DNA of 64,000 nt from Branchiostoma floridae (taxonomy: Eukaryota; Chordata; Leptocardii; Amphioxiformes; Branchiostomatidae), in NCBI RefSeq assembly GCF_000003815.2, contig NC_049991.1:16246971-16310970 (forward strand), written 5' to 3'. The stretch's first letter is position 1; every line of letters starts with the position of its first letter. Below the pieces are notes generated by a model. The model was not told the origin of the DNA. It saw nothing but the letters and a program-made list of their open reading frames with translations, and ran no database searches. Of this stretch, positions 86-48,300 are shown piece after piece. Position numbers and translations under genes: made by a program.

Positions 86-3000
86 CTTTAGATAAGGATG
101 AGGAGTCCTGTCCATCCTGGCTGGAGGACTCGGCTGCACTCCCCACACTGTCCCTGTCCCTCTGTCTCTCCCTCTTCTCCTTACCTAGTGCAAAGGGGCT
201 CTCGGCTGCTTCCTAAGTGTATGTGCAAAGACAATTACTCTAGGCATCAAACGTTCAAAGCAGAAGTAAATGGGGTAACAGGGAGGTGTCAAATTCTACA
301 TCACATGCAGATATGTACCTCAATAATCATCAAACATTACGACTGGACAGAATACATTATTTGTGATGTTCAACTTACGAAAGCTTGAGGCTGTTTTATA
401 AGTTTTTAGAACTATCCCCATGGGGACTCAAAACAGCCTCCAATAACATATAAAATGTACATTGTAGTATAATAGTAACAGACAGTTGTAAGTCCAAAAA
501 TAGTTGGCCCATGTCAGAACATTTGCCTAAAGAAACAGGATCCAGATGTTCATAATTCTCCTGAATTAGAGATGTTGGCAAGCCAGTGTGAGGGCTGCTA
601 GAAGCGTGACTTAGTCAGGCCAAAAGTCAAATACCTTGATATATTTCTCTAGCAGATCGTAGTCCGGATTGCTTGGCTCCTTCAGGATGTACTTGATGAT
701 GGAGGCGTGTATGCGGAAGAACACCTCCAGGGCCTCCATGGCCAGGTCGGGCGGGTTGTGGTAGTGGATCTTGCGGGGGTAGCGAGCCTCATCCTCGTGT
801 AGGTAGACAGCAGCCAGCCGGTAGTGTTCCAGGAACACCTGCGGAGGGTTGCCCCGCTTCTCCGCCACCTTCCCCAACATGTAGTGATGGAGCCACTCCT
901 CCTCCTCTCCGTCTCCCTCTATCTGGTTAGCCTGAGAAACAACAATCAGCTATTAACCATCTCCCTCTACATTCAGCCTGCTAAGGTTTTTTTAGCCACT
1001 TCTCTAAAATGTAGTGATGGAGCCACTCCTCCTCCTCGCAATCCCCCTCTATCTGGTTAGCCTGAGAAACCGCAATCAGCTCTTAATCCTTAGTCTGCTA
1101 AGGTTTCTCAGCCACCTTCCCCAACATGTAGTGATGGAGCCACTCCTCCTCCTCACCATCCCCCTCTATCTGGTTAGCCTGAGAAACAGCAATTAGATAT
1201 TAACTTTCAGTCTGCTAAGGCTTCTCAGCCACCTTCCCCAACATGTAGTGATGGAGCCACTCCTCCTCCTCTCCATCCCCCTCTATCTGGTTAGCCTGAG
1301 AAACAACAATCAGCTATTAACCCTTAGTGTGCTAAGGCTTCTCAGCCACCTTCCCCAACATGTAGTGATGGAGCCACTCCTCCTCCTCACCATCCCCCTC
1401 TATCTGGTTAGCCTGAGAAACAACAATCAGCTCTTAATCCTTAGTCTGCTAAGGTTTCTCAGCCACCTTCCCCAACATGTAGTGATGGAGCCACTCCTCC
1501 TCCTCTCCATCCCCCTCTATCTGGTTAGCCTGAGAAACAACAATCAGCTCTTAATCCTTAGTCTGCTAAGGTTTCTCAGCCACCTTCCCCAACATGTAGT
1601 GATGGAGCCACTCCTCCTCCTCACCATCCCCCTCTATCTGGTTAGCCTGAGAAACAACAATCAGCTATTAACCCTTAGTGTGCTAAGGCTTCTCAACCAC
1701 CTTTCCCAACATGTAGTGATGGAGCCACTCCTCCTCCTCGCCATCCCCCTCTATCTGGTTAGCCTGAGAAACAACAATCAGCTATTAACCCTTAGTGTGC
1801 TAAGGCTTCTCAACCACCTTTCCCAACATGTAGTGATGGAGCCACTCCTCCTCCTCACCATCCCCCTCTATCTGGTTAGCCTGAGAAACAGCAATTAGAT
1901 ATTAACTTTCAGTCTGCTAAGGCTTCTCAGCCACCTTCCCCAACATGTAGTGATGGAGCCACTCCTCCTCCTCTCCATCCCCCTCTATCTGGTTAGCCTG
2001 AGAAACAACAATCAGCTCTTAATCCTTAGTCTGCTAAGGTTTCTCAGCCACCTTCCCCAACATGTAGTGATGGAGCCACTCCTCCTCCTCACCATCCCCC
2101 TCTATCTGGTTAGCCTGAGAAACAACAATCAGCTATTAACCCTTAGTGTGCTAAGGCTTCTCAACCACCTTTCCCAACATGTAGTGATGGAGCCACTCCT
2201 CCTCCTCGCCATCCCCCTCTATCTGGTTAGCCTGGGAAATAGTAATCAGCTATTAACCCTCAGTCTGCTACTAGAAGTAAGGTAGTCGTTTGGCACCAAA
2301 TTTGGACTGGTTCCACCCTGGCTTGTACAGTAGGAAGGTTATTGTCTGGATAAAGCAGCAGGCCTTATTGTCTCCATTCTTGTTTGTCTGGCTGTATACA
2401 TGGACTTGGCAACATTCTGTGAGTGAGTCACAATGACTTTGGTAATGGAACAGTGACTTGGAAACAATGAATTTTTACAGGTAGTGACTTGATGTTCAAG
2501 TTGAATCTCAGTGGGTGAATCTCACAAACGATTGTTCATAAATATAAGGGAATAACAAATGCTGTCTTTAAGTTCAAACTACTGTAGAAACATCTTATAC
2601 ATGTACCTCCACTATACATGTATAAAACGCATTTGACCTAACCTGCCTTAAGCTTACCTTGCTATTTGCAATACTGGACTGAAGCAGCTTACTCCATTAT
2701 AAAGTATGATTACATTTAAGACACTGGCTCTCACCTGAGTGAAGCAGTACTCGCTCCTAGACAGCATCTCTGCCTTCTTGCCGACCATCTGTTGGACAAT
2801 CTCGGGCGCGAGGGTGATCTCCTTTCGCTGCTTGAGCTGTCGGGAGGCGTGAGAGTGGAGCCAGTAGGCCAGCGAACCGTACTCGATCCACAGGGACACG
2901 TTGGTGTTGTCCAACTCGAGGGCTCTCTTAAAACACCTTAGGAAGAATCGCAGTAAGGATTTGCATGTGTGTTCATTGTAGTCCATTAACATGTCCCTAA

Positions 3001-6000
3001 TCTCCAAGCGGATGTTGGGTGGAAAATTGTTAAGCCTCCTGACTAGTTTGTCAGGAAAAACGGATAATAAAAAAAAATTAACAATTTTATATCCGGACAT
3101 CTACAAGCAAATGTTAGGGTATAAAATGGCTTTATACCCTGACACCTGCAAGCAGATCTGGGGATGGAAAACTGTAAACTATAAAGCCTTCTGACCATCA
3201 GAGACTGCCAGAAAAAATGGCTGGTCAAAGTCTTTACATCCAACTTCACATCCAACATCTGCTTTGAGATCACATGTACAGTAGCTTTCATCTGCTAGTC
3301 TCAAATTATAATGCTGCTTCTCCTGTTTATCGGCTTTCATTTTCATTTCATTCATTTACACATACAGGAAATGCATTTTACCTGTTGGTGCTTTTTAACT
3401 TGGGATTTAAAAAGTAAGCATCATATAGAAAAAGTAACAGTGTTCATTGTCAAACAAAGTTTAAACCATGTTTGACACACTTCTTACCTCAGTGCAGCGA
3501 GGGAGTGTTTGTGGATGGGCCCCTCGTTCTTCAGCTCCTGTGAGTTGAGCTTCTGCTCGATGCGGCTGCTGCGAGCCAGCGCCATGCCTGCCCAGGAGTC
3601 CAGTCTGTCCGGACACACACAGATGTCCTGCAGGTAGAACTTGATGGCTTTGCTGTAATAAGGGCATGGAAAAGAGAGAGAAAAAAAGACGTTATTTAAA
3701 GATAAGAGTAACAATAAATGAAACAAGTAAAATGTCTTGCTATGTGTATATGTGGCTTTCCATGTGTACCTTTCTATAGTCATGACATTATTGTGACATA
3801 GCAACAGAAATTTAAATTTTAAAGAATATCTGGGATCTGTAAGCACAATTCTTTACTTTAACAAAATTTATCGTGACTTTGCTAATGACTCATACAAATG
3901 TAGAAAGCAGTCCTATTGACTATTAATTACCTAACTTTTCGACAGGTGTTTTTTATGTATTTTTACAGTCAGGAAAATGTTAATGTATGAAACAAGTAAG
4001 TGGTAAACAAAATGATGGCAAACCTGGACTCCTTGTTTTTGAAGTAGTAGTCAGCGAGTAGATAGTACAGCTCCTTCACAACAGGGAGAGTGATGGGTCG
4101 GTCACTGGGGATGGCCGGAGGCTCGTCCGCCTGACCCTCGATGTACGCCACTACTGATTCTGTCGTGTTGGCGGGATTGGGATCCGTCGGAACCAGCGCT
4201 ACGATTCGTCTGAGCAGGTGTTCCAGCTCCGCGGAGACTGTGCTGGTCTTGTAGCTGTCAAACTCCGGGATGACCTTGGGTTTGAAGAACTCGAACATGG
4301 GCTCCACGTCATCCCAGGTCAAGGGCACCTGGAGAAGGAAGGAACAGAAACTTGCTGATTTAGGCCTAGCTTTTGGAAATGAAAAATATGATAAGAAAGG
4401 CAACAAAACACACTGAACGTACAAAAAATTAGTCAGGAGCATAATTTTTTATATTCCTTTGTAACCATTTTTTCACTTTCACAAACATCCTGGCCGGGCC
4501 CTGTTTTGGAAATTGGGCCTAAGCCTTAGAAGGGAAGGATGAATAAAATAAGATATGTAGAACAAGGAAATACTGGAGAGAGAAATGAATGGTAATAGTA
4601 AGAAAAAAAATTGGGTGTCAGGGGAAAGAAAATGGGAGGAGGAAATAGGAAGAGAGGATGTGTAATGGGACAAGTTGTGGTGAAAATGCAGAGAATCAAA
4701 ATGTTTAAATTTACACTGTACCAGCAGAGACTCCATGTAAAACAGGACAAAGAAAATTGTGTAATGTTGTTGAAGACAGGTTCATATGCAGGATAAGGGA
4801 GTTATTGAAGGAAATGTACAAAACAGAAAAATAGAGGAAACAAGGGGGGGGGGCAAGAAATTGGAATTGTTGATGATGTACGAGGGGCGTGCAATTAGTA
4901 ATGGTCCTGACCCATTTCCAGGAGATTAATGAAACTTGGCACAGTTATTAGTCTTTCTCTTCATAGGAATCACCCAGAGTTATGCATTTCTCCCATCGTT
5001 TGATGCAGCTCTGGACACCGATTTTGTAGGACACCCCAGGTTGGTCCTCCAACTGATGCCTCATCAATGGCACAAGAGGGACGACCAGGTCTGGGAGCTG
5101 TTTCCACAGACTTCCAGCCACGTTTGAATTCAGGATGCCAGCGTTTTACAAGGTCATATGATGGGGCATCATCACCATAAGTTTCATTTATTTCATCAAA
5201 AGTCTTCTTTGGTGTGCGTCCTTTCAAATACAAAAACCGGATCACTGCACGACACTCAACTGGTTCCATTTCACACCTGGTCCATTTCGCACCTGACTAA
5301 GTTCAAACACCAGTAAATCAGAAACCACAATTAGTTCAGAGATGTCTTTTGCAACATAACCCATAGAGATATGAATCATTACACATACAAAATTTCATTT
5401 AGATCAGACAACTGGAAGTGGGTCAGGACCATTACTTATTGCACGCCCCTCGTTTAAGAGGACAGTTATACAAGGTTTTTACTCACTGAGTCACGTGTTC
5501 TATCTGCATAACGTGATGCCACGACAGCTGTGGACTGTTCATTCCTTGACAAAGACTGGTGCTGTTCAGTTGAAAATTTGAGTCCAATTTTTGTGTTGGA
5601 TATTACAGTTAAACTAGTTCAAGAAGGTTTTTTACCTGTGGTGACTCGTGCTCCATGAGATGGCGCGCTTTAGCCTTCTTGTTGGGGTGCCCGTACAGGC
5701 AGTAGTAGCACTGCTCCAGGGACATCTCCAGGTGGTCCTTCAGAGACTTGGCATTGCTCTTCTCAGCCAGACCCTTCAGCTCGTCATTCAGAACTGTCAC
5801 GTAGAACTTCAGGAGGAGACCATTGCTGTTGCAACACCAGGATCTCCTGCAGTGGACACCAGGGCAAGAAAAGACTTTTCTTTAATACACTAACAAGTAT
5901 CTTGTTCATCTTGAACAACACTGGTTAGTTATAGATTACTGGTATACTACACAAGGCTAAATTTGAGGGTCCTTTACTAAGACAGGTACTATCAAATTCA

Positions 6001-9000
6001 ACAAAATTTATATTTGCAGTTGTGTTGAGTGAGTGAGTGAATGAGTGAGTGAGTGAGTGAGTGATAAAAAAGACGTTTTTTTCCAATTCACTCTAAATCT
6101 GTGCTCCCCTGTGTGTGCGCAGCTCTCTGAACACCTGCAATACAAGCCAAACATGAAAGACTAAGTAGGTACTATCTCCCACCTGCCCAGGTACTCATGT
6201 GATGTATTAAGCAGCATGAGAGATGATGGCAGCATGCTCTGCTGTTTGGCTCCTTCCCCTGCCATGTCCTGTTTCCCCCCCTCCTCCTGTGCTGACAGTG
6301 GTACATTTGTTTGTATATCCACCTCCATGGCAACACTGCCGGTTTCATCCTGCAGGGACTTGATGCGCTCCTCCTGGAGTCAAACAGAAACTCAACATGT
6401 AAACTAAGCATATCTGTTGGCCACACCTTAGGACCAAGGTCTTTTTATAGCAAGTACAGGCACTGGATATTACAAATACTGGATACTACTACTACTACTA
6501 TTACTACAAAGAAAGACAAAGTGCCTAACAACAGTTGCTATGTAAAGGAACATTGTAATGGCCCCACAGTTGAAACAACTTCTGATGATGTATACAACAT
6601 ACTGGGGTACAACATTTCTCATGTTGGAAATAACTACTGGATACTACTACTACATTGTACTACTACTACCAAGGAAGACAAAAGTGCCTAGCAACGATTG
6701 CTACATGTTGGTAAAAGATCATTTGTAATGGCCTGATATCTGACAACTATTTGTGATATTGTAAATAACAATTGTGCAAAATTTCATGTTTTTTTCCCAT
6801 CATCTGAGCAATTTTTGCATCTATCGATTGGACTATCATGGCAATTTTCAGTTAGTGTGGGACAAACTTTATTATGTCAGCAACTGAAACAAAAGTGTAC
6901 CAATATCAATTGCATTTTTTAATGATCCTTACAATGTAACTGAAACAAAACTAGAAATTAATAGTGCAACAAATAGAAACAAAGTATTATTTCTGTGCCT
7001 TGAACTTAAAAAAAAAGATGCTGAGACTCCCTACAACTGTACGTAGATGGGGGAGAACTGTTGTCATTCCTGAATGCAGTTTTACCAACTCACAGGGCCT
7101 ACTGTAGGCGGGTTGGACATCAGCTGGCTGTGTGGGGGGCTGGTGGTACAGACAACTGGGGTCTGCTGTGGGGACCTGGTGTTAGTCTGTAGCTGATCCT
7201 ACAGGTGCACAAAGGTCACATGCACCTGTCTACATGTACAAATATGCCTGCCAAACATTATCACAATCGCAATCTATAATTCCATCCTGAAACCCTTCAT
7301 GTAGGCACTATACTCTGAAGAGAGCAGGCTGGCTCCTTCTTTCTTTTGACAGCTCATCTGTCTTAAGTGCCAGTCATCACACATGTTCTGGTGGCTATTT
7401 CTGAATGAATCATCAAGAAAGATGATGGATGCCTTCTGAAAGATGGCTGATGCCTTCTGATTATGCTTCTCAACACAGCTGCTACATGTACTTGTTGTGT
7501 GTAACAGTTTTAATTCTTTATGTTCCACATAGGAAAGGGACTTGCAAAAACAGTATCATTGTAGATTTAAAGCTCACAGAGAATATAGAACATAGCAAAT
7601 GAATGATATCAAGCTAGATACAAATGTAGATGCTAAAGTGCATGTAGCACAAGGCAAGAAGGAAAAGTTAAATCATAGTAAAGGAGGTGGACTTGGTCTT
7701 TCTGACCCAAACAAATTACACCAAACATAACCCATACCTGGTACTTAATGAGCCTGTAGAGCAGTATCCAGGGCAGTACGGTGGAGGTGGTGGGTTCCGA
7801 TCCCTCCGCTGTCGCCATCACCATGTCAATGACCTTGATGAGGTTCTGGGTGAGACGTGCCAGTCGGTGGGAGGGCAGGATCTTGATGACATCCTTACCT
7901 TTAGACATGGCCCTACAACAGACAGGTTCAAAATTTTATAAGGCACCATCACACTTGTCTTATGATCTTTTAGCCATGTGATCAAGACTCTCTCCAGCTT
8001 TCAAATTTGTCAGTCCTCTTACTTTGATGAAGTAAGCTATACTTCATCAAAGGCAGAAGGTGCAGAAATGCTTCCCAAGGAAATTATGCACTTTTTACCT
8101 CTAATACGCCTTTCACTTTTCCCTACATTTGGAGGGATAAACAAACTTCAAATGGTTTCAAGTTAATTCTGAGGTAGTATCGTTGACAGCACAATAAAAA
8201 TGTCATGTCAAGTTTCAACTTTTTTTTGTCTATCAATGGCATGAGACCTGCTAAAATATTTGCCAATCATAAACAACAAAAATTCCATCCAGGAACAGAT
8301 CTAGAAGGACTTGAGGATTATTGTCTGACAGAAGGAATATTGTACACATATACAACAATCTATTACCTGTCCAGCCCAGTGCAGAGCTGTGTCAGCATGT
8401 TGCCCCATTGTTCCTTACTGGAGCTGCTGTACTCTGCCTGCCACTGCTGCACAGCCTCTTGTACCGACTCCTCTCCACACACCAGACACTGCTCATAGTT
8501 GGACAGTCTCAGAAGAGACTCCTATAATAATAACAGTACAACATGTACATGTACTTGGTTGGAACATCAGGCATTTTCATATGACTGGTTTATTTTGAAA
8601 TTCAACAAACTGACACTGACATAGCAGCCACACAACTGAATTGCGACATTTTTGTCTAGTTTTCTTTCTGATAAACTTTCATTTTATTTGCTTAGCCAGG
8701 TCGACCAATATACGCTAATTTACTGATAAACTACATGTAATTTCAGAGCCTTGTTAAGTTCAGTTACACTTGTTCCTTTGTATTCTCCAATCATTGTGAT
8801 TATGATGAAATACACTAGGCAAGACATCTGAAAACTATTCCCAAAAAAATCACCATGATGAAGACTCCTTAAAAATCAATTTGACCCAAGATCTTTCCTC
8901 CAGGACTTTGTTTTCCCATCACAAAGTTGAAAACAGACCTGTAGTAAGAGCAGCTGTGAGGGCCGTTCTGTCACCCCCTCCACAACTTTCCCCTCCTTGA

Positions 9001-12000
9001 AAGGGGCCTGCTTCAGGGTGGGGAGGAGAACTTCTATAACCAGCTGGTAGTTTCCTGCAAAATAAACACAAAATTGACCTTAAATCATCAGTTCATCATT
9101 GGAATAGTCCAACAATGTGTTGCAGCAAGGCTAAGGTAGGGTAGTCATGGCACTATAATGAAAACACACATAAAGCATTCTTACAGAGCCAACATGAAAA
9201 ATCTATCTTAACACAAAAAAAAATGTACATGTAGGTATTGACATAGGATTACAAAAAAAAACACACACCTACATAAAGAAAAAACAAAGCATTTGCATTA
9301 AACATACTTGTCAAAAGCTTCTTTGTTAGATTACTTTTCTTTAATGTTATCTAACGCTGAAAATACTTACAATGTCAGATGTAGGCAAAAATGTATCTTC
9401 AGAATCTTCTCTTGACGTTAGAGGAGTGACTATGGAAGCCATCGAGGTCTTCCTCCCTCTAGCATGTCCAAAAATGTCTTAGTCCAATTAATAGGTGTGA
9501 GAACTACCATCTTCAGTTGTACACACTGTACATATCTAATCTTCCATCCTGAGTTAGATAAACTTGCCCCACCTGCTTCGTACAGCCTCTGCACCTCCTC
9601 CAGTGACTTGCACCTCTGCAGAGACTCCAGCTGTTTCTGTACCGTGTCCCGGGTGATGCTCTGGTCCTGACGACAGTTGGGCAGGGACACCACTACAGGG
9701 GCGTGGTCAGCCTCCTCACAACCCTACAGGAAAAACATGCGCATGGTAGTCATTTATTGTTGTATGCAACATAATGCAGCCTGCAGTTTCTGGCAGTGTG
9801 CTACACTCACTCACTCAAGATTTAAGAAAAATACCTTTGATCAATCATTTCTGCATTGTTACTTTACCAATTTGTTAATGCTACAACTCAATAAGAGTAT
9901 GACTACAGTCTTATGTACATGAATGTATCATTATTAACTTTTTTTACTACCCATTACAATGAATGATACACCAGCTAGAGGATGGAGAACAAATGTTTAG
10001 ACACGCATGTATGTATAACCCTGGTAAGACATTCTGCTTTACATGTATATCTAATTAACAATTACACAACTTCCCTAATGTTCAATGTCTGACACTGTCT
10101 TTTAAAAAAAAGTGTCTGCATCTGCTGTGTTGGCTGAAACTTCAACACATCATCAATAATGTATTACTGCAATTACTGTTTTGTGCTGTTTTAAATCTGT
10201 ACATGCAAAAGATGGATCCCATCTCATATTTCTGGTAAGACCATTAGGTACTCACAAGTCATCACTCAGCTAAGTACACTGGAAACACAGACAAGTCATC
10301 ACAAGGGTACATAAGACCAGCCAGTACTCACAGGTTTGGGCATGGCCAGCAGGTTGGTGCAGATGTCGAAGGCATCCAGGGCCTGTTCCATCTCACCCTG
10401 CAGCATCAGGAAACGGGCCTTCACCCAGTACACTGGAAACAAAGACAAACAACTTAAAACACAAGCCAGGTGTTAAGTGACAACATACAATACTATATCA
10501 TTCATAATACAAAACAAATCAGGCAACAGGATAAATTCTGTAAAGATTCAGATGTTTCAGATGACATTATTCATCAAATAGCATCTACAATTTTTCAATA
10601 GTAACTAAACTCATCATCTGTCTCTTAAAAACACCGCCAACACCAATGTTTTTTTTATTACACTGTACATGTAATATGTTTCAAGCAGAAAACATTTCCA
10701 AAACTTTTTTTCTGAGATGCGGTAGGAAAAATTTGTCCCTGAAAAAAAGGCTCATGTAGCTACCTCTGATGGCATACTCCAGCCACCCATCCTGCAGGAT
10801 GTCCCTACATGCAGTCATGGCCGTCAGGTGGAACATGTCGGCTACGTAGTGCTTCCCTGGGAAGTCTGGGCCCAGGTGAGTAGGGGCGGCCGCTGGGCTC
10901 TTCCTGGGGGAGGAAAAATAAAGAAAAGAAACAATGTACTATACAGTCAGTTAAGTTTCCACACTTCAATTTTGCAGCACTACGATGGAAATCAATGATC
11001 GGTGTAGAAAACAGTGTTTTTGAGTTTGATTTTTGATGAGGTTAGGATGAGAGGCCATCACAAAAACCACAAACACAAAAGCACTCTTGCGGATAACTAT
11101 CTCACCATTTACAGTATCATAGTTATGTGACTTGCCTCAAATTACTGCAATTCACTTTGTCTTCTTGGTATTAAACTTTCAAGGTCCCAGAAAATTTAAC
11201 TTGTTCTTGGAACTAAATGTTCACTGTGGCGGCAGGTGGGCATTAGAAAGTCTCATGTATTATTTGTTATCAGTAATGATAAGTTCACTTTACAGTCATC
11301 ATTGTGAAATCCGTGAACATAAAAGTACATTGAAAAAATCAGGAATTACAGTAAACTAGATTTTTGCAGGCTAAATTGCTTTCCTAATTACTAGTACAGC
11401 AGTCATCACTTTTGTCTGCTTTATTCAACAAGTTGTCAGTGGCAGAAATATCAAAACTTACAAGTACAATGTATAGTATGGGGAGAAAGTTTTAATATTG
11501 TCAGTAGACTTAACAGTGCACCCTAGCAATACACAGATGAACTGCAGATTACAACATGTGACCACCAACAGTGCAAATCAGTGCCCACCCTGGTGAGTTC
11601 CTGGGTGCTACGGAGGCTTTAGTCTTAAACCCCAGCCAGTGGTCCAGCTTGAGTTCGGCGTACACCAGAGCAGCCAATCCGTTCTTCAGGATCCAGCTGT
11701 TGCCGTAGTCACGGTAGAAGACGGAGGGGAGCACGATGTGGTTCCGGACCCTCTCAAACACCTGCAGGAAAACGTCAGGCTGTCCCTGGGGCCTGGGGAA
11801 ACATAGGAGAGAGTGAGTGAGTGAGTGGGTGGTGGAGTGAGTGAGTGAGTGGGTGGGTGGGTGGTTGTTTGAGTGAGTGGTTGAGTGAGAGAGTGAGTGT
11901 GTGAGTGTGTGAGTGAGTGAATGAGTGAGTGAGTGTGAGCAAATGAGCAAGTGAGTGAGGAGTAAGTGAGAATGGAGTGAGTGAATGGATTTTATTACTT

Positions 12001-15000
12001 GACTTTCATACATGATACAAAGTACACATGTATACAAATGAAGATGGAAACTGACCCTATACACCAAAATGTGTTGGAAAGAGTTTCAGAATCAATAGAA
12101 ACAAACTCTGGAGAATGCATGTTAAACTCACCACTTTGAGTAGAAGCGCTGTGCCATGTAGACAATGTACATGTTCATCAGGTGGAGAACACCACTGTTC
12201 ACTTCATGCTTCCTCAGGAACTCCAGAACATCCACCTAATCAATGTAGACAAAACACTTGTTTAGCCAGGTTACCAGGTGCTGTACAAACTGCAGGATAT
12301 GTTAGAACATTAAGGTACTTAAAGGTGCCAAGCAACTCGTTCCAGTCTCTGGCCACCTTCGTCTCAAGGTTGTCCAGTCCCACTTAAACCCAACCTACTC
12401 CTCTGAGACTTTTGACTGATACATGATGTCAGTTATTTTCAGTTTCGGCAAATGGACATTACTGGAAGTCTTAGAAGAAGAATAACTATAAATGATTATG
12501 ATAAAAGGTGCCTAAAAGCACCTGAAAAACAAATTTGTTCAAGAATTTTCCTTGGAAAGCCATTACAGCCTAAACTATCTATTGCAATAAGTAAGGTGCT
12601 GTGTCCGAAGAAACTTACCTGCTCCGTCAGTACATAAGAAGTTGGGCTCCTGTTGCCTGATAGCTTCTGTAGGAGGTCCATCCTCTCCAGGGGCGCGGTC
12701 CTCACCACTGTCTCCTCCTGACTGCTCGCCTCCTGACTACTGGCATCCTCCTCCATTAGGTCATCTACAAACGTTTCAACATCGTCAACTGGTCATAAGG
12801 AAAGAGGGCCACATCGGGTTACAGTTTCATGAATGAGACTGCAAAACAGCACACATTATTTCTCTTAGAAATATCAGGCTTGCTGACCCAATAGTTTGTT
12901 AGTCTGTTTGAACCTTTGTCTATTCATGAAGCTCAAATTGGCCTTCAGGCCACTTTTTACTGAGGTCTTGAGGGAAGAGGATAAGAGAGATTATGAATAC
13001 CGCTCAGGAACAGATCTAACCCCTACCCCATGTGAAAATTACATGATTGTTATCTGACATTCGAGTTGTTTCTACATTTCGTTGTTGTTTCTTACCTGAT
13101 CCCTGAAGGCTGGACGGCAGATAATTTTGGAGAAGCTCCTGAAAGTTAATCGTCTCTTCTTTCTTTTTTCCAGTGTTCCTAACTCTCTGGGAACGCCGCT
13201 TGGCAGACAGGTCGCTATCAGGCGCCAGGCGTTTCCGCTTTGGCCCTCTCTTGGCCTGACTGGATCCATCAGTGTCCATGGACTGAGAGGAGTCCTCGGG
13301 AGGGGGCTTGACCTCCTGGGTCTGTCCCATGGTGACCACCTGGGTGCCTGATGCAGATATGACGACATGCGGCTGCAGAATGGGCACTGTTTGTGTGCTG
13401 GAAGAAGTGGCAACAGCAGTAGAGACGGGAGATGCAGTTGTTTGGACAGTGACATGTGCAGATACCTTTATCTCACTCCCAGGGCTTCTAATTTCTGGAG
13501 CTGACGTTGCCTGACTCGCAGAGGATCCCAGATACGGAGTCACGTCCACCCGGCAACCAATGGTCACAGGTTTCTCAGCAGTCTTGACATAGTCATACGT
13601 CGCCACCAAACTCTCCCCAAGAGCCTTCCATGTTATGGATGTCAGCGGCTTGGCAAAGGGGACAATGGGATCCTCCGGTCTGCGCCTAAGTTCTCGTCTC
13701 TTCTCCCGCATGTCCAGAGCCTCCTTGATGAACTGTTTTGCTTCCTCCTCATCCACAGTTTCAGTGTCTATACTCGGGTCGCACAGTCGGAACAGGTGCT
13801 GGGTGTCCCTTCGGAAGGGAGGGTACTCCGAGAAAATCTTGTTGCGGAAGGCAAGCCCCTTCGCGTAGTGGGGTTCGCGTTCCAAGGCCTGTGAGATGGC
13901 GTCCAGGCAGTGCTCGTAACAGTTTAGAGCGTACTGGAGAGTGATGACGTTGTCCAGGCAGGGCCAGTGCTTTGGGTTGCAGGTCAAACCCTGTAGTGAG
14001 ACCGACAAGGAATTTTTATGTTATTTAAGACAAACACCAAAATATATTACAACTGTGGACAACCAAGAGAGATTACAAATGTTGCTTTGTAGTTGTACAC
14101 ACATATTTCTGTAGCAAGCATGATGCTAGTTAATGTACAATACACACATAACATTAGCTGTTCATACATTTTTTGTAGGTGTACAAATGTATCAGCCCCA
14201 GGTACTTACACATTCGAAGCAGTACTTGGCGAGTGAGTAGTTGTGTATCTGTAAGGCGACCATCCCCATCTTGTACCACACGGTCACGTCAGAGCTGTCC
14301 AGGTTCACAGCCTCCAGGTAAGACTCCATTGCCGCCTCCAGACTGCCGTCCTGCGCCAACATGGCCGCCATGTTCTTATGGGCAGAGTACTTCAGGAGCA
14401 GACCTGGGAAAATTGGACTGTCCATCAGGGTTTCTTCTTACCTAGACCTTAACCTATTCTACCTCCAGTTTGCTCTTCTGATAGCTTCAGCAAACATTTC
14501 AATGGATACAGGAGTCAGACACTTCTGAAAGGAAGCAATAAGGAGATTGTAGCAAACTAGTGCTAGCAATGTAGCATAGGATTGATGGAGTCATTGGTCC
14601 TCAAATAACCTAAAGTAACCTCAAATGAAGTAAGCAACCCGACTTTGGCAACACCTTGCGACCACTTCCGGATTTTTAAAAGTTTAAAATGTGTGTACTT
14701 TAATCACGGTAGGTGGAGTGAGGAAAGTCGTGTAAAGTGCCCTTCCCAAGGATACAACATCTACCCAGGAATGCCAGGAATCAATACCATGACCTCTCAA
14801 TCTCCTGTCCACAATCAGGTTAACCCCCCACCTGGGTGGATGAGCCCTTCTGGTTCCCCATCAGCAGCCAGTGGTTCTGCCTCCTTCACCAGACTGGACT
14901 CCAGCAGTGCCTGGTACACCTCAGCTGCTGCTGCATGGTTACCTACATGGACATTCATATACAATAATGACACAGGGAATACAAGTTTTGTGTAATTTCC

Positions 15001-31747: not shown

Positions 31748-33906
31748 ATGGATAAAAAGGGTTTGTTCTTGTTCATTCTGGTCTCCTGTACATGTATCGC
31801 CATTTACGCCTTACTCGGGAGGGTCTCCCTGACTGTGGTGATGACAACAGCAGAAAAGAGCAAGCCCGGCATGCATTTCGTGTACCTCGGGACAGGCGAG
31901 ACGGAGGGCGCCACAGACGACACCAGGGCCACCCTCTCCTGCCGTCTGAAGAACAAGGTCCCGTTTTCAACCATTACTAGGACGTTGGAGGCCTTTCAAG
32001 GACGTCCTGCAGTCAGAAACGTCTTTCCAAAACAGAGTTTGGAGAACATGGTACACTACAACTCGTGTGCGGTCGTCAGCAGCAGCCATGCCATGAAATT
32101 CCACAAGTACGGAACGAAAATAGGTAATGTAGATTCTTCTGCTATTTTTCTGTAAGACTTAAGTGGACGTAAAACTTCCATGGTGTTTACACGTGTATCT
32201 GCAGGGTTGACTGTTGAACAAAAAGACGACACAAAGTGACCTAGAATACGATGAAAGGGTAACAACTTGTGAAGCGAAGGAATAATCATTACCCATGGAT
32301 TTTACGTCTGAAGATGACCCATGTATTTTTATACTATTCGGTAAATATACACACGTACATTTCATTTGTACTTACTTATCTTCTTCATGGGAAACGTATG
32401 CTTCAGTATAGAATCAAGTTTTCACAAGTCTCGATATTAGATGAGGTAACGGGCCAGTATTGTCTGCCTTTATAAAAGAAGAGATTACACTTGTTAACCC
32501 CCTTCATCTTTGTTGATGACATACTAGTACTCCTTCCCCTCTAGATGCACATGACGCCGTATTGAGGTTCAACTGCGCACCGACGAAGAACTACACCGTG
32601 AACGTGGGCAGGCGCACGGACTTACGTTTGATCAACACGGTTATCCCCTACTCAAATTGTCAACGGGAGTTCTGGGACAAGCGCATCAAAATGTTCAACA
32701 ACGAGATTGTCGTAGTCCGCAACTATTTAAACGTTCGGGTCAATAAAAACAACAAACTGGATCTAAGACTGGACGCGCACCACAGTTTTGAAAATTATAT
32801 CAGATACAGAAGGAGGTTTCCAAACAGGGCTATGCACTTCTTTCAAAGACCCAACTTCGGTTGGGATATAAAGAACGAACTCAAGCACTTTTGCAACGGC
32901 ATGACCAACTGTAAGACGACGGAGTTCGAGAAGAGTCCGAGCACAGGAGCACACGGTGAGTCGTAAAGCCGGCTTTACAAATCAAGAATTTAGCTCGGCC
33001 GAGTTGTCAGCGAGCTCAAAATTACGAGGAGGCATGACCCTGATGCCTTCGAACTAATAGCAGAGTTTATNNNNNNNNNNNNNNNNNNNNNNNNNNNNNN
33101 NNNNNNNNNNNNNNNNNNNNNNNNNNNNNNNNNNNNNNNNNNNNNNNNNNNNNNNNNNNNNNNNNNNNNNTTCCTGATTTGTAAAGGGGGCTTAACTACG
33201 TCAATCCCCTTAAATGGATGAGGGATCATGTTCAACGTGTACAATAAAAAGGGCGCCCGAGATGCCTTTTTGACATCGTGTAGTGTAACTCTCACATCAG
33301 AGGTTAAAGAACTTGATCATCACCTTGTTCTGACTCTCATGTCATGTGCACAACCCTTTCCACTCGAAGCTGCGACCGCCAAAGCAATCGTTTTGACAGA
33401 TCGTTCAAGGAATCTCACGTCTTGCAATTGTGTGTTTGTAGTCTCTTGAATCATACTTTTATAATGTATCACTATTCTAATCATCATATGAAGGGTTCTA
33501 CAAATCTTATTTGGGTTGCCGGTCGCTCAGCGATCCCCGCTCTGTAGAAAGAGAGCTTTATATGATCTTATATATAGGGGTCGGCTGACTGTCGAGAACG
33601 AACAATCTCTCCTTTTAATAAGAGTAAAATAATGTTGTGATGACTCGTGGCTGATATGTTGCAGGAGTCGTGATGATGCTGCACCTGTGTGACTGGGTCT
33701 ACACGTACGAGTTCATCCCTTCTGCAGTAGACAGGAACACCACCCTGGCTCACTACTTTGACGAAGACTTGAAGTTTACCGGGCGTTATCACTCCTACAA
33801 CACGGAGAGAGACTACTGGAGGGTGCTGACTGTGACGCCGTTGGAGGAGGTGGAGAAGACTGGGGTGGCAGTCTTCAGGGGATTGTCTCAGTATAACTGT
33901 ACATAG
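31748..33906 (+). CDS. Beta-galactoside alpha-2,6-sialyltransferase-like (ST6Gal family), paralogue A
   Basis: Golgi type II membrane enzyme that would transfer sialic acid from CMP-Neu5Ac to galactose-terminated glycans. Exons: 31748-32123, 32545-32955, 33665-33906; 1029 nt, 342 residues. A membrane anchor lies at about residues 6-27 (LFLFILVSCTCIAIYALL), with a short stem. Sialylmotif L starts at Cys107 ([16 protein letters not shown], then HDAVLRFN). Motif S is at about 257-279 ([17 protein letters not shown]). Motif III is YHSY and the VS motif is His305-x4-Glu310. Cys107 and Cys271 match the disulfide linking L and S. The family's RFNGAPT reads RFNCAPT here and in paralogue B. Both introns are phase 1. 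Intron 2 contains a MITE and the assembly gap; coding sequence is intact. Confidence 0.92.
32971..33188. mobile_element. Inverted-repeat MITE spanning the assembly gap
   Basis: Left end CTTTACAAATCAAGAATTTA (from 32973) is answered on the right by TTCCTGATTTGTAAAG (33171-33186), its inverse. The centre includes the 100 unknown bases, so the length is uncertain. A palindrome here would explain the gap. Confidence 0.7.
33071..33170. other. Assembly gap, 100 unknown bases
   Basis: Run of n in sialyltransferase A intron 2. A round 100 usually marks a gap of unknown size. Confidence 0.99.
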
Positions 33907-39257: not shown

Positions 39258-41710
39258 ATGGAAAAAAGGACGGCGTTCACCCTCGCCATCCCTCTGTGCG
39301 TCCTGTTCAACGTCTTGTTCTTGAGGTTCTCTCCCATCATCATCATTACGTCATCGGAGAACAGCCATCCCATCATACTGTGCCGCCACGGAAACACCGA
39401 CTGCACGAATGAACCAACGTATCAAACAACCCATATCAATTGGAATGGAAGTGAATTTATCGATGTACAAACAGGCAGACCAACTGCTAAGAAGAATGCT
39501 CTCTATTGCCGACTGAAGAAAGTTAGTTTCTCCACCATGACGAGAACGTTGCCACCACCTTCTAACGGTAGCGTCCTCAACCCGTACTTTCCGAGTGAGA
39601 GTTTAGAGAATCTGGTTCGTTATAACTCGTGTGCAGTGGTGAGCAGCAGTCATGGTCTAAAACTCCACAACTACGGACACGACATAGGTACATTTCCAGA
39701 TTTTATCTTATGACTTATTTTCGTTTTATGACCTCACTGAAGAAAGACAACCACATTGAATGTGATAATCTAGATATCTTACAATTATGCAATAGAAATT
39801 GCCGCTAATTCCATATTGAAAATAGTATTTAAGAAGTTTGGGAGAACAGACAGACACAACAAGAAGTGGCAACACCCTCACAATCTTGTCCATTTCACAC
39901 AGTACATGCTCAATATAGGGCACATGTAATCCACGGGTACTAACAGCACTAATCCCTTTCTGTCAGCTTGCAAGACCAAAATGGGCCAAGTCAACCTTCC
40001 CACCCTGCCAGTCTCCATATTATATATGCCATATACACTATCTTCCCCCTCACACCCTGCCTCTCTACTCGACATTTTTTGTTACTTTGATTTTAAGTTG
40101 ATCCACTGTCTGAATGTGTTATCATTGTTATTATTATTACCATTATTATATTAAGTTATCTTGAGTTATTTGTATTGTAAATAGTTGACAGCTGACGATT
40201 ACTTATGCAAGTTTGACCTTTGATTTCAATTTTGATTCAGTTGCAAGTTGTGATTTTGTGTTATTTTATGTTGGGGTCTCCCGGCCCACCAGGAGGTATT
40301 GAAAAACGCCAGTAGGCGATGTATTTTCCTGGATAAATAAATAAACTGAACTGACATACATTCCAACAGACACAACAGATACACCGTAATCACGGAGATT
40401 TTTTCTATTATTAATTATTTCCAGATTCTCACGATGCCGTTCTGAGGTTCAACTGTGCTCCCACCCAAGGTTTCTCTGCGCATGTCGGCAGTCGGACAGA
40501 TATACGTTTGATAAATACGCAGATCCCCGAGAAGACGTGTACGGACGAGTTTTGGGACGAACGCATCAAAATGTTCAACAATGAAACTGTGGTCATCCGA
40601 AATTTCGATTCTATACGTGTGGTAAGAGGGAAAATTGACACTCGAAAAGATAAATACAAAAGCTTTTTCAATTATATACGATACAGAAAGATGTATCCCA
40701 ATAGCACAACGCACTTTATACAAAGATCTAATTTCGGGTTGGATTTGAGGAATGAACTCAAGCGGTTTTGCGAGACGACGAAAGGCTGCAAGCCAAGCAA
40801 AATGAGTCCAAGCTCTGGATCACTTGGTAAGTTACTTAAATGTGACTTTTAAAAAGATGAGATTCGTTTTATATTTTCCGTTGTTACTTTAAAGTTCGAA
40901 AGTTCTATTTCAGAATTCTCCCGGAATTCTAGCTATGTCCCGTGGTGTAAATGTACTTTTCATTTCATTTTTAAGAGTATAACGTTCCTAAATATCTTCA
41001 TTTCCTATTTGATATTCCGAAGAGATGTTAAATTTGATGTGTCTGTTTCAATATCATGTAATGCTACGGTCACAATTGCAGCGTTGTCAGCAGGGTATGT
41101 AGCCCCGGCCGGGCTCTGAAGCCACATATTTGTCCCAGTGGACTACCGAATACAGTGGGGAAACCTCTAGATATGTGCTCACAATCATCGTGCGGAGTCA
41201 AGCTATTTGTTACCGGGTCCCGGGTTGACTTTAACTCCGAATTAGAATAAACCCGGGCTCCGGCTGTGCCCACGACTAACCCGGTAGCTGCTGGGTGTCC
41301 AACGGGGCCACGTAGGGGTCACGCCCAAAAGTGAAAAACAAACTGTAAACTATCCGACGGGGTCCCTTTTCCCAATTGTGACCGAAGCATAATCCACGTT
41401 AAACATCCAAAATAAGATGCAAACTGATGGCGATACCTTTACCCCTCCATCCTCCCCCCTCCCCACAGGAGTGATAATGATGCTGCATCTGTGCGACTGG
41501 GTCTACACCTACGAGATAGTTCCCTCCAGTGTGGACAAGACGCGCCTAGCTTATTACTACAGCGGGAACATCACTAAGAATCATAATGCATTTCACTCCA
41601 TCGCCACGGAAAGGCAGTACTTCAGAACACTGACAGTGACACCACCAGATGAAGTGGAGAGAACGGGCGTGGCAGTCTTTAGGGGCCTGTCTCAGTACAA
41701 CTGTACATAA
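39258..41710 (+). CDS. Beta-galactoside alpha-2,6-sialyltransferase-like (ST6Gal family), paralogue B
   Basis: Tandem paralogue of the gene at 31748. Exons: 39258-39687, 40425-40826, 41469-41710; 1074 nt, 357 residues. Intron positions and phases match paralogue A. It has an N-terminal anchor ([18 protein letters not shown]), a stem slightly longer than A's, motif L ([16 protein letters not shown], then [12 protein letters not shown]), motif S ([18 protein letters not shown]) and the VS pair in FHSIATE (His-x4-Glu). The C-terminus [13 protein letters not shown] is the same as A's. All key residues are kept, so both copies look active. The motif-L Gly-to-Cys change is shared and so predates the duplication. 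Intron 1 carries a LINE tail at 40260-40365. Confidence 0.92.
40260..40365 (+). mobile_element. 3' end of a truncated non-LTR retrotransposon
   Basis: GGGGTCTCCCGGCCCACCAG, ATTGAAAAACGCCAGTAGGC and TTTTCCTGGATAAATAAATA followed by CTGAACTGA is a typical short-repeat LINE 3' tail. The 5' limit is unclear and may reach about 39830. It lies in sialyltransferase B intron 1. Confidence 0.6.
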
Positions 41711-42344: not shown

Positions 42345-45300
42345 CTTCTGCTGCTCAGGATTTATTTTTTGAAAGAAACAAGATAAAAGAGATATGAATA
42401 TGCAATACAACATAGTACCGACACAAATAAAAAAGGAACGCAGTTCTATAGACAGATAGATACAAATGTGGGTTGAAATAGCGATGAGCCAAAAGGCATG
42501 ATTGGATTCTACGGCTACTACACCGATAATATCTGCTGCTCATCAAGCGCTTGGAGGTTGGAGATAAAGCTCGGATGGGAGAATCTGCGGGATTGCCAGG
42601 TTTTGCTTGTCATCTCCTGCAGCTCATAAGTGGCTGGTAGAGGGCGCTGTAGGGTTGCTCTCGGATGAAACTGCAACAAACAACGTAAGCCCCGTGGTCT
42701 TGCGAAGTCATGGAGCTGCGGAGAGAAGGGACAGAGTGTTAACCTGTGGCTTCCCCTGTAGTGTGGGTGTATTCTGACTAGATGTCATGTACGTGGTCAT
42801 AAAATAATCACGACCTTAAGCTCACCATTTTATCACTCATTTTCGAGCTTCGAGCAGCGCATTTTATCTGTATTTTTCTTGTAAGACATATCTCATGTCA
42901 CTTCAAATGCCTGGACGACAAGTGTTACATAAGGAAAGATACGTCATAGAATCTGCTTTTACTCTGTAACGGATGAAAACGTAAAGAGCCCCATTGACAT
43001 TCCACACTGCATTGGCAACGTCACGTTTTCGACTTCAAACCTTCAGACATTTTGCATCACAAGTAGTTCCACATTCGTAGTAGGTGGTTCTTCCAAACAC
43101 ACATTCAGGCCTTCCGGCAGTTACCATTGGCAACGATTAAAGGATTTACCAAGGCACATAATTGGTACAGTAATAGCAGGGACAAATGCTGCCTAGTCCG
43201 CGGGCAATTCGGAAGCTGCGCAACATGGATTAGAAACAGACGCGTACTTGAATGAAGCGCGTTGAAATGGCGAAATTAGCCAACCTCGTCCTATAAAAGC
43301 TGTGATAACGTCTGAACAGCTGGGAGGATGGATAAGGGACACACACAGAACAGTCGTAAAGGGGGTAATTAGGATTGTGCGGATAGGAAGCATGTGTATT
43401 ACGTTCTATGGGAGCTTTTAACGTTTAGAAATCAAGAGGTTGGAATAAACGTTTAAGTAATGCTTCAGTATGACAGATGCTGGGTGCTTGTTCGAAACTA
43501 TGTCGAGGTCAGCACGAATGGGAAGAAATAGACTATTTTCAGCTACAATTTCGTGCAATCAACAGGGCGAAAACTCACGAGAATATATTTGCAATAAACT
43601 TTTCTTTTATTCGAAACTCTTACTCTCAAACAGAAGAAGAATTTGTAGGATAGCCCGGCCATTGTTGACCGGAGACATAATGACAATGGATAACGGTACA
43701 GACAACAGCCTTTGCACCACGATTTGCAAAATATGATTAAGTGTCAAACAATTAATCTCCCGGCAGATTTACAAGTGGCATGAAATAGTATCAAAGCTGG
43801 CCAAGGAATATAGCTTACCAAGGAATGTCCTCCAGCCTTGGGTGGCTAAATTCTTTGACCAGCTTTGATACTACTAGCTACCGCGGTGGATTTGCATGGA
43901 GATGATAAAACAACAGTCTTCAAACAGACGTGTCAGATGGATGAAAAAAATAGGGACAAGTTACCCTCATGGGATTTCAGTCGGTCTTTTGCAGTCTATC
44001 CAGCTACGGTCAGACTTCTATTCTACTAGTCTTTGATTCCTAACCTGGCCAAAGTCTCCTGTTATTATGCGGCCAGGCGGGGTCTGTTAAAGACTAATGA
44101 AACAATGCTAGAGAGCGGTTGGTGCTGACCTTATGGAAGCTGCACTTTCTGGTTGAGGATGAGCTCCACCAGGTCCCCGACCTGCAGGTAGTTGCTGTCC
44201 TTCTTGTTTGACGTCCAGGAGAATTTGTAGGCGTGGTTGTCCACATCCAGGTCCGCCGCGCGTTTCCTGCCTGCAGCCTTGCCGCCTTGGTTACAAACAA
44301 ACAAAGAAACGCCGGATTAGGTGAATGAAATAGATGAGATCATTCACAAGCTACCAGTGAAAAATATACGACATGCATATTGCAGTAGCATTGCTAGTCC
44401 ACCTGATAATAGTAGTAATTTGATATTATATGACTCCGGATTGTGATGCATCCATTCAATTCAGACGACATGGCCTCCTAACATTTTGCATTGACATCAT
44501 TCAGATAGCTGCACGTTTAGTCGCAATATCCAGTTGTCAAAGGGATGTTGGCACAAAATTCTTCCTTAATTAGTTATCTCCAGTGACTCTTGCAATTTGC
44601 GTCCATAGTGGGGAAGTAGATACTAGAAATCCATTTGTTTTATTCCATGCAGCCAGTTCTTTCAACGGCCAACAGAATAAAAACGGCACTTCTAACAGGC
44701 AGGAAGTCTTGCAGTCTCCAAGGGATCACTGGTGAATGGGGCTATCTTCTTCAAGTATCTAGTTAAGTATCTATTGCATTGTTAGAAAAGTAGTCTTCGA
44801 AGAAATGTTCAGTTGCAATTATATCGCTTTACATACCCACGACAGCACGCCTAATGCTTCTGTAGATGTACTACACTATCTACTTATTATATTGCTATCT
44901 GGTAGAATCTGCACTTCTGCAGGTAGATCATAGAGATCCCAACTGGAGTCTCTGCTGACCACGATCAGGATGGTGCTAAGGTGGTCTCCGATCCCATTTT
45001 TTACAAATCCTAAATTTCGAGCCTTATGTTACGAAGTTCTGCTTTTTAAAGAAATAAATTTGAATTCACAGTCTTTGATAGAGATTCTACCTGTAGAATC
45101 ACCGTCTCTACATATAGCCTTGGATGCTGCATGAAATAGGAAGAACGACTTATACAGGAAAGCAAGTCTGTATCCGAAACGCTCTAGCAACTTGGTATGA
45201 TATGGCTAGTAATGAATATATACATTGCCTGAAACATCCGGAGATAAACTGACCTGTGATGTCGTCCAGGATGGCCTTCAGCGCGTGCAACCTCCCCAGT

Positions 45301-48300
45301 TTGTACACGTTCTTGCTCTTGGCGTTCGACATGACAGCCTCTGCCATTCGCTTGTCCCTGAACAAAGGCGTTGATAGATCAATTTAAAACACAACTAAAG
45401 GCTGGAGTAAAAGTGTGCGAAACGGAAATGTTTGCATGAGTGGAGATATGCTCTGACTGTTATCGGGTGTAAGAAGTTGTGGAGTTACTGAACTGAACAC
45501 AGGACACAGACACGAAATGAAAGGAAGGTTCATTAGTATAAAAAAAAGAGATTGATACGACTGTAGTAGTCTTTGCACCTGCATGAGGAAAATTGCCTTC
45601 CACTGACTCAAACTTCTTTCTGTTGAGCAAACATACAAGTCGCGCATATCCTTTGAAAATCATTTGTGACATTCTAGACCGGAAGGATTGCCCCTTACTC
45701 TTCGTCCTGGTACAGCGGCATCATCTCCTCCGTGACGGCGTTCTCCTGACCAGGGTACCCATAGTCCACGAAGCCGGCCAGCCTGGTTCTCTCGGTCCTA
45801 CAGGACGGGTTGGCAGATTCGGGCATTAAGTAGTGAAGGGAGTTAATTGAAACTGACGCTTTAATGGAATGAATGAATAAATGGTTTAAAAAAGGTAGGT
45901 AAAGGTTAAGAGGTAAAGGTAGTCCGATCCGGCCATTTTGAGGCCTAAAGGCAGCTGTGTCCAGGATACGCTTTGGAAGCCGATGCGTATACTGCCCTGA
46001 TCAAAGTTAGGTAACCATTTTTACACCTGGAAGTGGAAAAAGCTTGAAGCGCCTTTCACAAGGTCTAGCAAGGAAGGCCAGAAATGCCAGAGATCGGTCA
46101 TTCGACGCAACATTAATGGTTTACTCAGTATTGATTAAAGACAATGAAAGAGAGGCAGTAGCTACTACAGCAAAGTAGCAATATTAAAACGTCCTGAAAA
46201 GTGTTTTGAATGGATATAAAATTTGAGCTTGGGTTCCTTAGAAGGATTCGTACCTTGTGTTTGGGCTTTCGTAGTTCGGAGCCGCCTCCAGACAGGCGCA
46301 GCTTGTCAGTAGCACCAATGTGAAGAAAAGAAGCACAACTTTGCCCTCCATGTTTCCTCCTTGGCGGTCCTCGCACTTGGGTTTGACGGGCTGTTCTGTT
46401 AAGGACGGATACAGAGGTAAGTATGTGTTATTATAATCACTTTCTGACGCAGTTTGCTCAATCTGGGGACATACAAGAATAGCTGCAACTGACGTATCTC
46501 CGGTGTTTTTGCTCCCGGTGGAACCATGTATTCTTCCTGTTGCAGGAAGGTTAATTCTAACGTCATAAAAATAATGATTTGCACTCATGAGGATCCGATG
46601 ACGCACCCCTACCAGTCCCACGGTTGGAAATGTCAGATCAATTAAAGGAACTTTTTTCCCTTTAGAACATCAAACTGCTGCCTTCACCACGTGAGTCATT
46701 ACTTTTGAAGTTACTCTTTCTATTTCAAGCTGGTATCGACGCTTGAGGCTGTTCGACCACACCGATGATCACAAGACAGCTTTAATTCCGCGCAGAGCGG
46801 TACAGACTGGTTTGTTGGATTTTGTTTCAGCTGGCAATATCTAGCTCTGCATTTATCACTCTCACGGCAAGGCCGAAGAAATACCTAAAACTGACTTTTA
46901 CAGATAACTTTCCGCGTGGTTTATATGTGCATTAAAAAGAGGCTTCTCATATACCACTGTTGACTATTTCTAACGGGTTGCAACATGAGTTTGACTTCTT
47001 TCTTTTTGGAAGCAACAGAAGACGAAAAGTCACACATTTTCTACAATATGTGGGTTCTGCGATTTTAAGAGAAAAGAGGCTTTCTGTTCGTCAGTGAATG
47101 TGGGAAATTGGGATATATCTTCGTAAACAAAAATGATTCTTTCAGTTTGACTAAATGAACACTAAAATGTGTTTCGTCTTAGATTAGGAACTTAGATCTG
47201 GGACCGTGCTGTGCCCACATAAAGCACTACCTGGCCACAAGGGAGGTTGAGACTGGTGTTAACCTCACCCGCGTGTGCACCGTGCAGTTATGTCCAGTTC
47301 GGCTACCTACAGATAATGTGCAAATGGATGGAGGCAGCAGGGGCAAGCAGTCAGGCTATCCGCAGGGAATGTGCAGTCTCCACATCTAACTGGCGAAATC
47401 AGGAGTCAAGACCGGGTGAAGCAATACAGTCAAGGGTTAAGAGAAAACTAATCTACCGTGTACCATCATGGCGGAATGTGGAGACTTGGGAGCAAAAATT
47501 TGAAACATTTGCTGACAGCATAAAAGACTTGCTTAGGACTTAAACAGGCTCTCTGGACGACATTAAACAAAACAAATGAAACAAGAGGAAGGGTGAAACT
47601 AAAGTATCCAAGAAACATTTTGAAAAGTGTCTGATCCTTACGACTTCCAGCATTGATAGATTGTAGCTCACTACAGCTTTGCACCATCAACAATACTTTT
47701 GCTATGACGCATTCGTGTGAAAAAAAGACGATTACTCAGTAGAAAGCCTATGAGTTTTCCCGTTCGATGATATTTTGGAGCGAGGGTAATACAACTACAC
47801 AGGTTGGTTTTGTGAGCTTGTTATGTAACTCTTACCGTTGTGGAATGACCAAACTCCCCACCAAATGGCTAACTGCTCCCATCTGCGGCTTTCAAAAGTT
47901 GACTGTAAGTCTATTTTTGCTTTAATATCATCACATTATGGTTCTATTGGCAGTTTTGCTTCATTTCCAGTACCACAACAACGCCATGACGTAAATGATA
48001 CTGACTAATGAGCCCGATCCTTCTCTTCTATATCGACATGAGGCACTTGAAAAGTGGCGGTGAACAGAGAAACTTGCTATAGGCTGGACTAGTCGATAAA
48101 CCAAAAGCTATGGCAACAGTTTTCTCAGACTTTCTGGAGAAATATTGAACAGCATCGTCATATGTTCTTGCCAAAACTGTGCACCAAATGTCTTCTTTGT
48201 CGTTTTACTGGTGGAATCTTCTCAATGCCCTCTCTACGTCGCCTAGCTTACTCAGACACCGACTTAATCGCTTATAGTCATACTTAAGCTGTTCTGTCAC

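Follow-up and report, generated by a model that had tools for sequence, protein, structure and literature searches.

The window analysed here, a 64,000-nucleotide stretch of the Branchiostoma floridae genome (C13:16246971-16310970), carries on its minus strand a four-exon gene for a secreted peptide precursor, whose most likely family in our assessment is that of parathyroid hormone (PTH). As a first-pass annotation of the stretch had proposed, the precursor could be rebuilt from four exons; it has 151 residues, its coding sequence measures 456 nt, and its features are the following.

46254..46351, minus strand: exon 1, start codon and signal peptide (MEGKVVLLFFTLVLLTSCACLEAAP...), phase-2 donor GTACGA
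45699..45797, minus strand: exon 2, propeptide spacer, phase-2 donor GTAAGG
45254..45357, minus strand: exon 3, encoding the Lys-Arg cleavage site followed by residues 1-31 of the peptide (MAEAVMSNAKSKNVYKLGRLHALKAILDDIT), phase-1 donor GTCAGT
44131..44285, minus strand: exon 4, GGKAA-GRKR (which supplies the amide donor and the cleavage site), C-terminal flanking peptide AADLDV...QKVQLP and stop
44271..44285, minus strand: first 15 nt of exon 4, optional; splicing at the acceptor GCTGCAG instead starts the exon at 44270, in frame, and yields ...DDIT-GRKR
43606..43611, minus strand: candidate AATAAA polyadenylation signal, about 520 nt beyond the stop and the single TTTATT/TTTAAT match in 43001-44131

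These four exons are a genuine prepro-hormone gene, which their GT-AG structure, a strong coding signature and the predicted helix of the encoded peptide together confirm. All three introns are of the GT...AG type, with phases 2, 2 and 1 in order. The GC content at codon positions 1, 2 and 3 is 0.57, 0.36 and 0.79 over the whole coding sequence (0.52/0.42/0.62 in exon 1, 0.64/0.36/0.84 in exon 2 and 0.59/0.31/0.80 in exon 4), and the overall GC of the exons lies between 0.52 and 0.62, compared to 0.39-0.42 in the introns. When the exons were set against null chains made of stop-free stretches from the remainder of the window, the mean third-position GC excess was 0.322 versus 0.019 +/- 0.071, a value reached by 0/3000 chains. 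A non-functional origin of the exons, as open frames arisen by chance or as a copy in decay, is highly improbable in the face of four open exons with GT-AG sites, a third-position GC about double that of the introns and the absence of any null chain as extreme; the gene is probably functional. A tblastn search found no second copy inside the window.

The precursor begins with a hydrophobic N-terminus (mean hydropathy of 3.2 over residues 5-13 of exon 1), after which come a Lys-Arg site (68-69), a peptide of 36 residues (70-105) and GRKR (106-109). The single helical peptide annotated between KR and GRKR is borne out: AlphaFold2, given exon 3 alone without relatives, predicts one helix over residues 2-33 of 34, with a mean predicted local distance difference test score (pLDDT) of 93. 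The helix is not notably amphipathic, since its hydrophobic moment at 100 degrees (residues 14-31) is no higher than that of shuffles, 1943/2000 of which match or exceed it; the measure is uninformative, as 800/2000 shuffles also score as high as human PTH 17-31. Intron 3 can end at either of two acceptors, both in frame and separated by 15 nt, the second of which does not appear in the first-pass annotation. Use of the upstream AAG (pyrimidine fraction 0.69) yields DDIT-GGKAA-GRKR and a 36-residue peptide, and that of the downstream CAG (pyrimidine fraction 0.38) yields DDIT-GRKR and a 31-residue peptide; both choices are predicted to lead to a C-terminal amide. The signal peptide would route the precursor into the secretory pathway, where a prohormone convertase would cleave after KR(69) and at GRKR(106-109), and the glycine thereby exposed would become the amide. 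The released product would thus be a helical amide of 36 residues or, through alternative splicing, of 31.

The case for a PTH-type hormone starts from the register of its residues. At offset +1 the peptide shares six of 33 positions with human PTH (E3=E4, K12=K13, R19=R20, L23=L24, L27=L28, D29=D30), so that the Glu4, Lys13, Arg20, Leu24 and Leu28 singled out in the first-pass annotation are indeed kept at PTH spacing, with Asp30 in addition. This spacing requires the first residue of the peptide to correspond to PTH position 2, and PTH residue 1 is therefore missing. The same offset gives 7/35 identities to PTHrP, and an offset of +3 gives 6/36 to TIP39. MAFFT aligned the peptide without gaps in the same register, placing R19 and L23 on the R20 and L24 columns, which are the sole two invariant columns among five PTH/PTHrP/TIP39 peptides. 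The vertebrate PTH intron ahead of the Lys-Arg site lies in phase 2. The intron that had been noted just before the Lys-Arg of the amphioxus precursor is likewise in phase 2 and ends 4 nt upstream of the KR codons, and the vertebrate position to which it was likened is given in PMC4354418. The gene thus has in common with vertebrate PTH, PTHrP and TIP39 a signal peptide, a KR site and a helical peptide carrying E4, K13, R20, L24, L28 and D30 of human PTH; it differs from them in its start at PTH position 2, the lack of Trp23, the predicted amide and an intron after residue 31. The mature PTH of Xenopus and chicken, for comparison, is encoded by one exon (PMC3009671).

The family profiles point in the same direction. 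In the shuffle counts that follow, paired values were obtained with BLOSUM62 and then BLOSUM45, and shuffles were either free or pattern-keeping, the latter preserving the pattern of hydrophobic, small and polar residues. The score of the peptide on the mean PTH-family profile was reached by 3/5000 and 0/5000 free shuffles, and among the 36-mers of the window 8/5929 lay at or above it, overlapping cuts of exon 3 being included among those scored. Averaging over the family sharpens the PTH signal relative to single hormones: human PTH alone gave 158/5000 with either matrix, and PTHrP 130 and 250. A CRF-type peptide was rejected, with a profile score at chance level (796/5000 and 805/5000), and so was one of calcitonin/CGRP type, as the peptide has no cysteine for an N-terminal disulphide loop and the calcitonin and CGRP scores are at chance.

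The more serious competitor is a hormone of the secretin/GHRH/PACAP type, amidated and encoded on one exon. Hormones of this group are helical, often amidated ligands of class B1 receptors, and the start of the window peptide, MAEAVMSN, does resemble the YADAIFTN of GHRH. GHRH aligns at offset 0 with eight identities across the 36-mer and gives 132/5000 and 52/5000, better than human PTH alone; VIP, at offset -4, gives 466/5000 and 27/5000 and thus tops human PTH under BLOSUM45 only; and the mean PACAP/VIP/GHRH/secretin/PHM profile gives 546/5000 and 125/5000. The C-terminal amide and the intron that falls at peptide codon 32 are also features that we take to be reminiscent of GHRH. On the other hand, the profile of nine secretin-type hormones is near chance (663/5000 and 560/5000), an hhalign comparison with the same nine aligned a single column (E 0.29), the Phe6 that is invariant among them is Met6 here, and the initial His/Tyr is replaced by Met. 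A genome search with the Pfam Hormone_2 model gave no match on the window either, which counts little, because nothing rose above the cut-off anywhere although a PACAP/glucagon-type gene of B. floridae has been published. Taken together, we hold an origin in this group to be unlikely.

A further line of evidence for the PTH type comes from elsewhere in the same genome, searched as an assembly of 513 Mb in 431 contigs. The only location in it that the Pfam PTH model PF01279 picks out is on contig C4, with a score of 20.8 bits (cut-off 22; E 0.21). On reading, this locus proved to hold KR-led exons, and altogether five KR- or RR-led PTH-like peptide exons, here C4a to C4e, lie within 90 kb.

3090586-3093034 and 3176679-3176776, contig C4: the PTH-like peptide exons C4a to C4e

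A genome search with C4a returned four places, all on this contig: C4a itself (3092927), C4b (3092299, E 0.09), C4e (3176679, E 3.3) and C4d (3090586, E 4.0). A search with C4e recovered this set of four again, with E 0.8-5.6 for the three besides C4e itself; C4c (3091801) was spotted by eye. The weaker of these matches gain support from falling within 90 kb of one contig in a genome of 513 Mb. When C4a-C4c were submitted to Pfam, C4a and C4b matched the PTH family at E 0.0012 and 0.026, both below the 22-bit cut-off, and C4c gave no PTH match. C4a reaches a PTH profile score matched by 0/5000 and 0/5000 shuffles (secretin profile, 297 and 167), and C4c scores on neither profile. Among the PTH-like peptides that these searches found, the C4 exons appear to be the plainest.

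The window peptide resembles members of this set. When it was scored on a joint profile of C4a and C4b, two exons identified without recourse to the window, 9/5000 and 0/5000 free shuffles scored as high, and C4e, which itself resembles C4a and C4b, is its best match among 18 peptides, with 9/30 identities, no gaps and a shared first residue (3/20000 and 1/20000 free shuffles); C4d (15/20000 and 3/20000) and C4b (44 and 27) come next. The peptide exon is entered in phase 2 and left in phase 1 in both the window gene and C4e, where an acceptor CAG|A precedes the dibasic site and the donor follows DAL-G. A signal-peptide-like frame, one of four such frames printed, lies at 3175978, about 700 nt upstream of C4e. 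A downstream Gly-basic-basic exon that would provide C4e with an amide was also sought, and the three candidates, which have poor acceptors, were not accepted. The C4 exons resemble the window gene in that each carries a dibasic site followed by a single peptide of roughly 27-35 residues, with Asp/Glu at PTH position 4 and Arg20. They differ in that several are clustered and that no GRKR was seen directly behind the peptides in the exons read, whereas the window gene encodes a single peptide on a different contig (C13). By descent, the window gene would be a divergent paralogue of the C4 exons.

Several results weigh against membership of the PTH family. The aromatic residue at position 23 (Trp, or Phe in PTHrP), which C4a-C4e keep as Trp, is replaced by Ala22 of the peptide. 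With E-values up to 10 admitted, Pfam returned no family, neither PF01279 nor PF14980, for the whole precursor or for two cuts of the peptide (human TIP39 itself is listed in Pfam under a model of its own, not under PF01279), a sequence search of the PDB matched nothing, and the PF01279 search of the genome, which matched only C4 and that below cut-off, did not return the window exon. Nor did genome searches with C4a or C4e find the window exon, or a search with the window peptide find C4, and in pairwise comparison C4a and C4c are at chance with the window peptide. The hhalign match to the PTH alignment has an E-value of 0.12, compared to 0.037 for the secretin-family control PHM. PHM also scores on the PTH profile (5/1000 and 2/1000; the control GLP2, 41/1000 and 26/1000), and C4b scores on the PTH (1/5000 and 1/5000) and secretin (1/5000 and 2/5000) profiles alike, so that these two profiles do not separate cleanly. 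Lastly, pattern-keeping shuffles reach the score of the peptide on the PTH profile in 75/5000 and 96/5000 cases, on the C4a+C4b profile in 368/5000 and 193/5000, and against C4e in 566/20000 and 288/20000, which indicates that part of the PTH signal is residue pattern.

These last counts, the shortness of the peptide, the lack of a Pfam family and the failure of the window and C4 peptides to find each other in the genome could also reflect a secreted neuropeptide of an unrelated or lineage-specific family, in which the PTH-like residues would be the convergence of a short helical peptide. We regard this as rather improbable, given the register, start, exon phases and 9/30 identities shared with C4e. 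Family membership, as put forward in the first-pass annotation, thus stands in part: the PTH profile is the best of those tested and C4e the best match, but the family is not recognised by Pfam, is only weakly so by hhalign, and GHRH (with VIP under one matrix) scores above human PTH. The profile comparison that had been suggested as a check placed PTH ahead of secretin and CRF without isolating it, in view of the two-way scores of PHM and C4b. The PTH type is therefore the best-supported of the families compared, with moderate support that falls short of proof, and we put the chance that the gene encodes a PTH-type prepro-hormone at somewhat better than even.

By analogy with vertebrate PTH, the amide would signal through a PTH-type class B1 receptor, which its N-terminal part would activate while the Arg19-Leu23-Leu27 face would bind the extracellular domain. 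Hormone-receptor (HRM) domains, which occur in adhesion receptors too, matched at least 17 exons of the assembly, on C10, C18, C15 and C4; among the matches listed, 12 are on C10 and three on C18. On et al. (2015) reportedly paired amphioxus PTH peptides functionally with a receptor. B. floridae has a PTH/PTHrP receptor gene (PMC3483286), and PTH-like peptides of tunicates and amphioxi have been found by bioinformatics (PMC4354418), those of amphioxus being reported with reference to Mirabeau and Joly 2013 (PMC4354418; PMC5640766). It is possible that the C4 exons are these peptides, and the window gene may itself already be among the published ones; the passages of PMC4772807, PMC7251081, PMC9049855, PMC11521371 and PMC3961327 at hand contain no amphioxus PTH sequence. 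Nor would this be the first amidated PTH-type ligand from an invertebrate, because the insect ligand of an invertebrate PTH-type receptor, iPTH or PXXXamide, has an amidation site: its precursor has KR, the peptide and GRR, and the GXX signal for amidation and cleavage is strictly conserved (PMC7224569). It shares with the window gene the KR site, the single peptide, the Gly-basic-basic amidation site and a C-terminal extension; compared by its published description, it differs in a mildly conserved Pro at -4 that has no counterpart in the window peptide (PMC7224569).

The remainder of the window holds other genes and elements. Two sialyltransferase (GT29) exons lie on the plus strand at 32520-32966 and 40415-40852 (Pfam E 4e-9 and 2e-10), and a short frame with a Mos1-type transposase HTH_48 domain on the minus strand at 4970-5296 (Pfam E 1.3e-10). 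The minus-strand exons in 611-14020 have the look of a CABIN1-type gene, four of whose frames were put to Pfam without a match, and the open frames of 1197-2285 are built from a repeated unit and its variants.

The window gene thus most likely represents a further, divergent representative of the known amphioxus PTH-like family. The first-pass annotation had seen in its amide something notable for the origin of the family, a claim that is not supported: since amphioxus PTH-like peptides are already in print (PMC4354418; PMC5640766) and the insect ligand also has an amidation site (PMC7224569), the gain is a further member together with its processing. A bolder scheme, which we put forward as a doubtful conjecture, is that this is a separate amphioxus PTH-type gene, on another chromosome than the C4 set, that makes 36- and 31-residue amides by choice of acceptor and that, together with the amidated insect ligand, would imply an ancestral PTH-receptor ligand that was amidated and an amide that vertebrates lost. 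PTH-type signalling in invertebrate chordates is relevant to the rise of the vertebrate calcium hormones, and the presence in one genome of a divergent, predicted amidated peptide and, on another contig, of a less modified set would open the ancestral form of the hormone to receptor assay.

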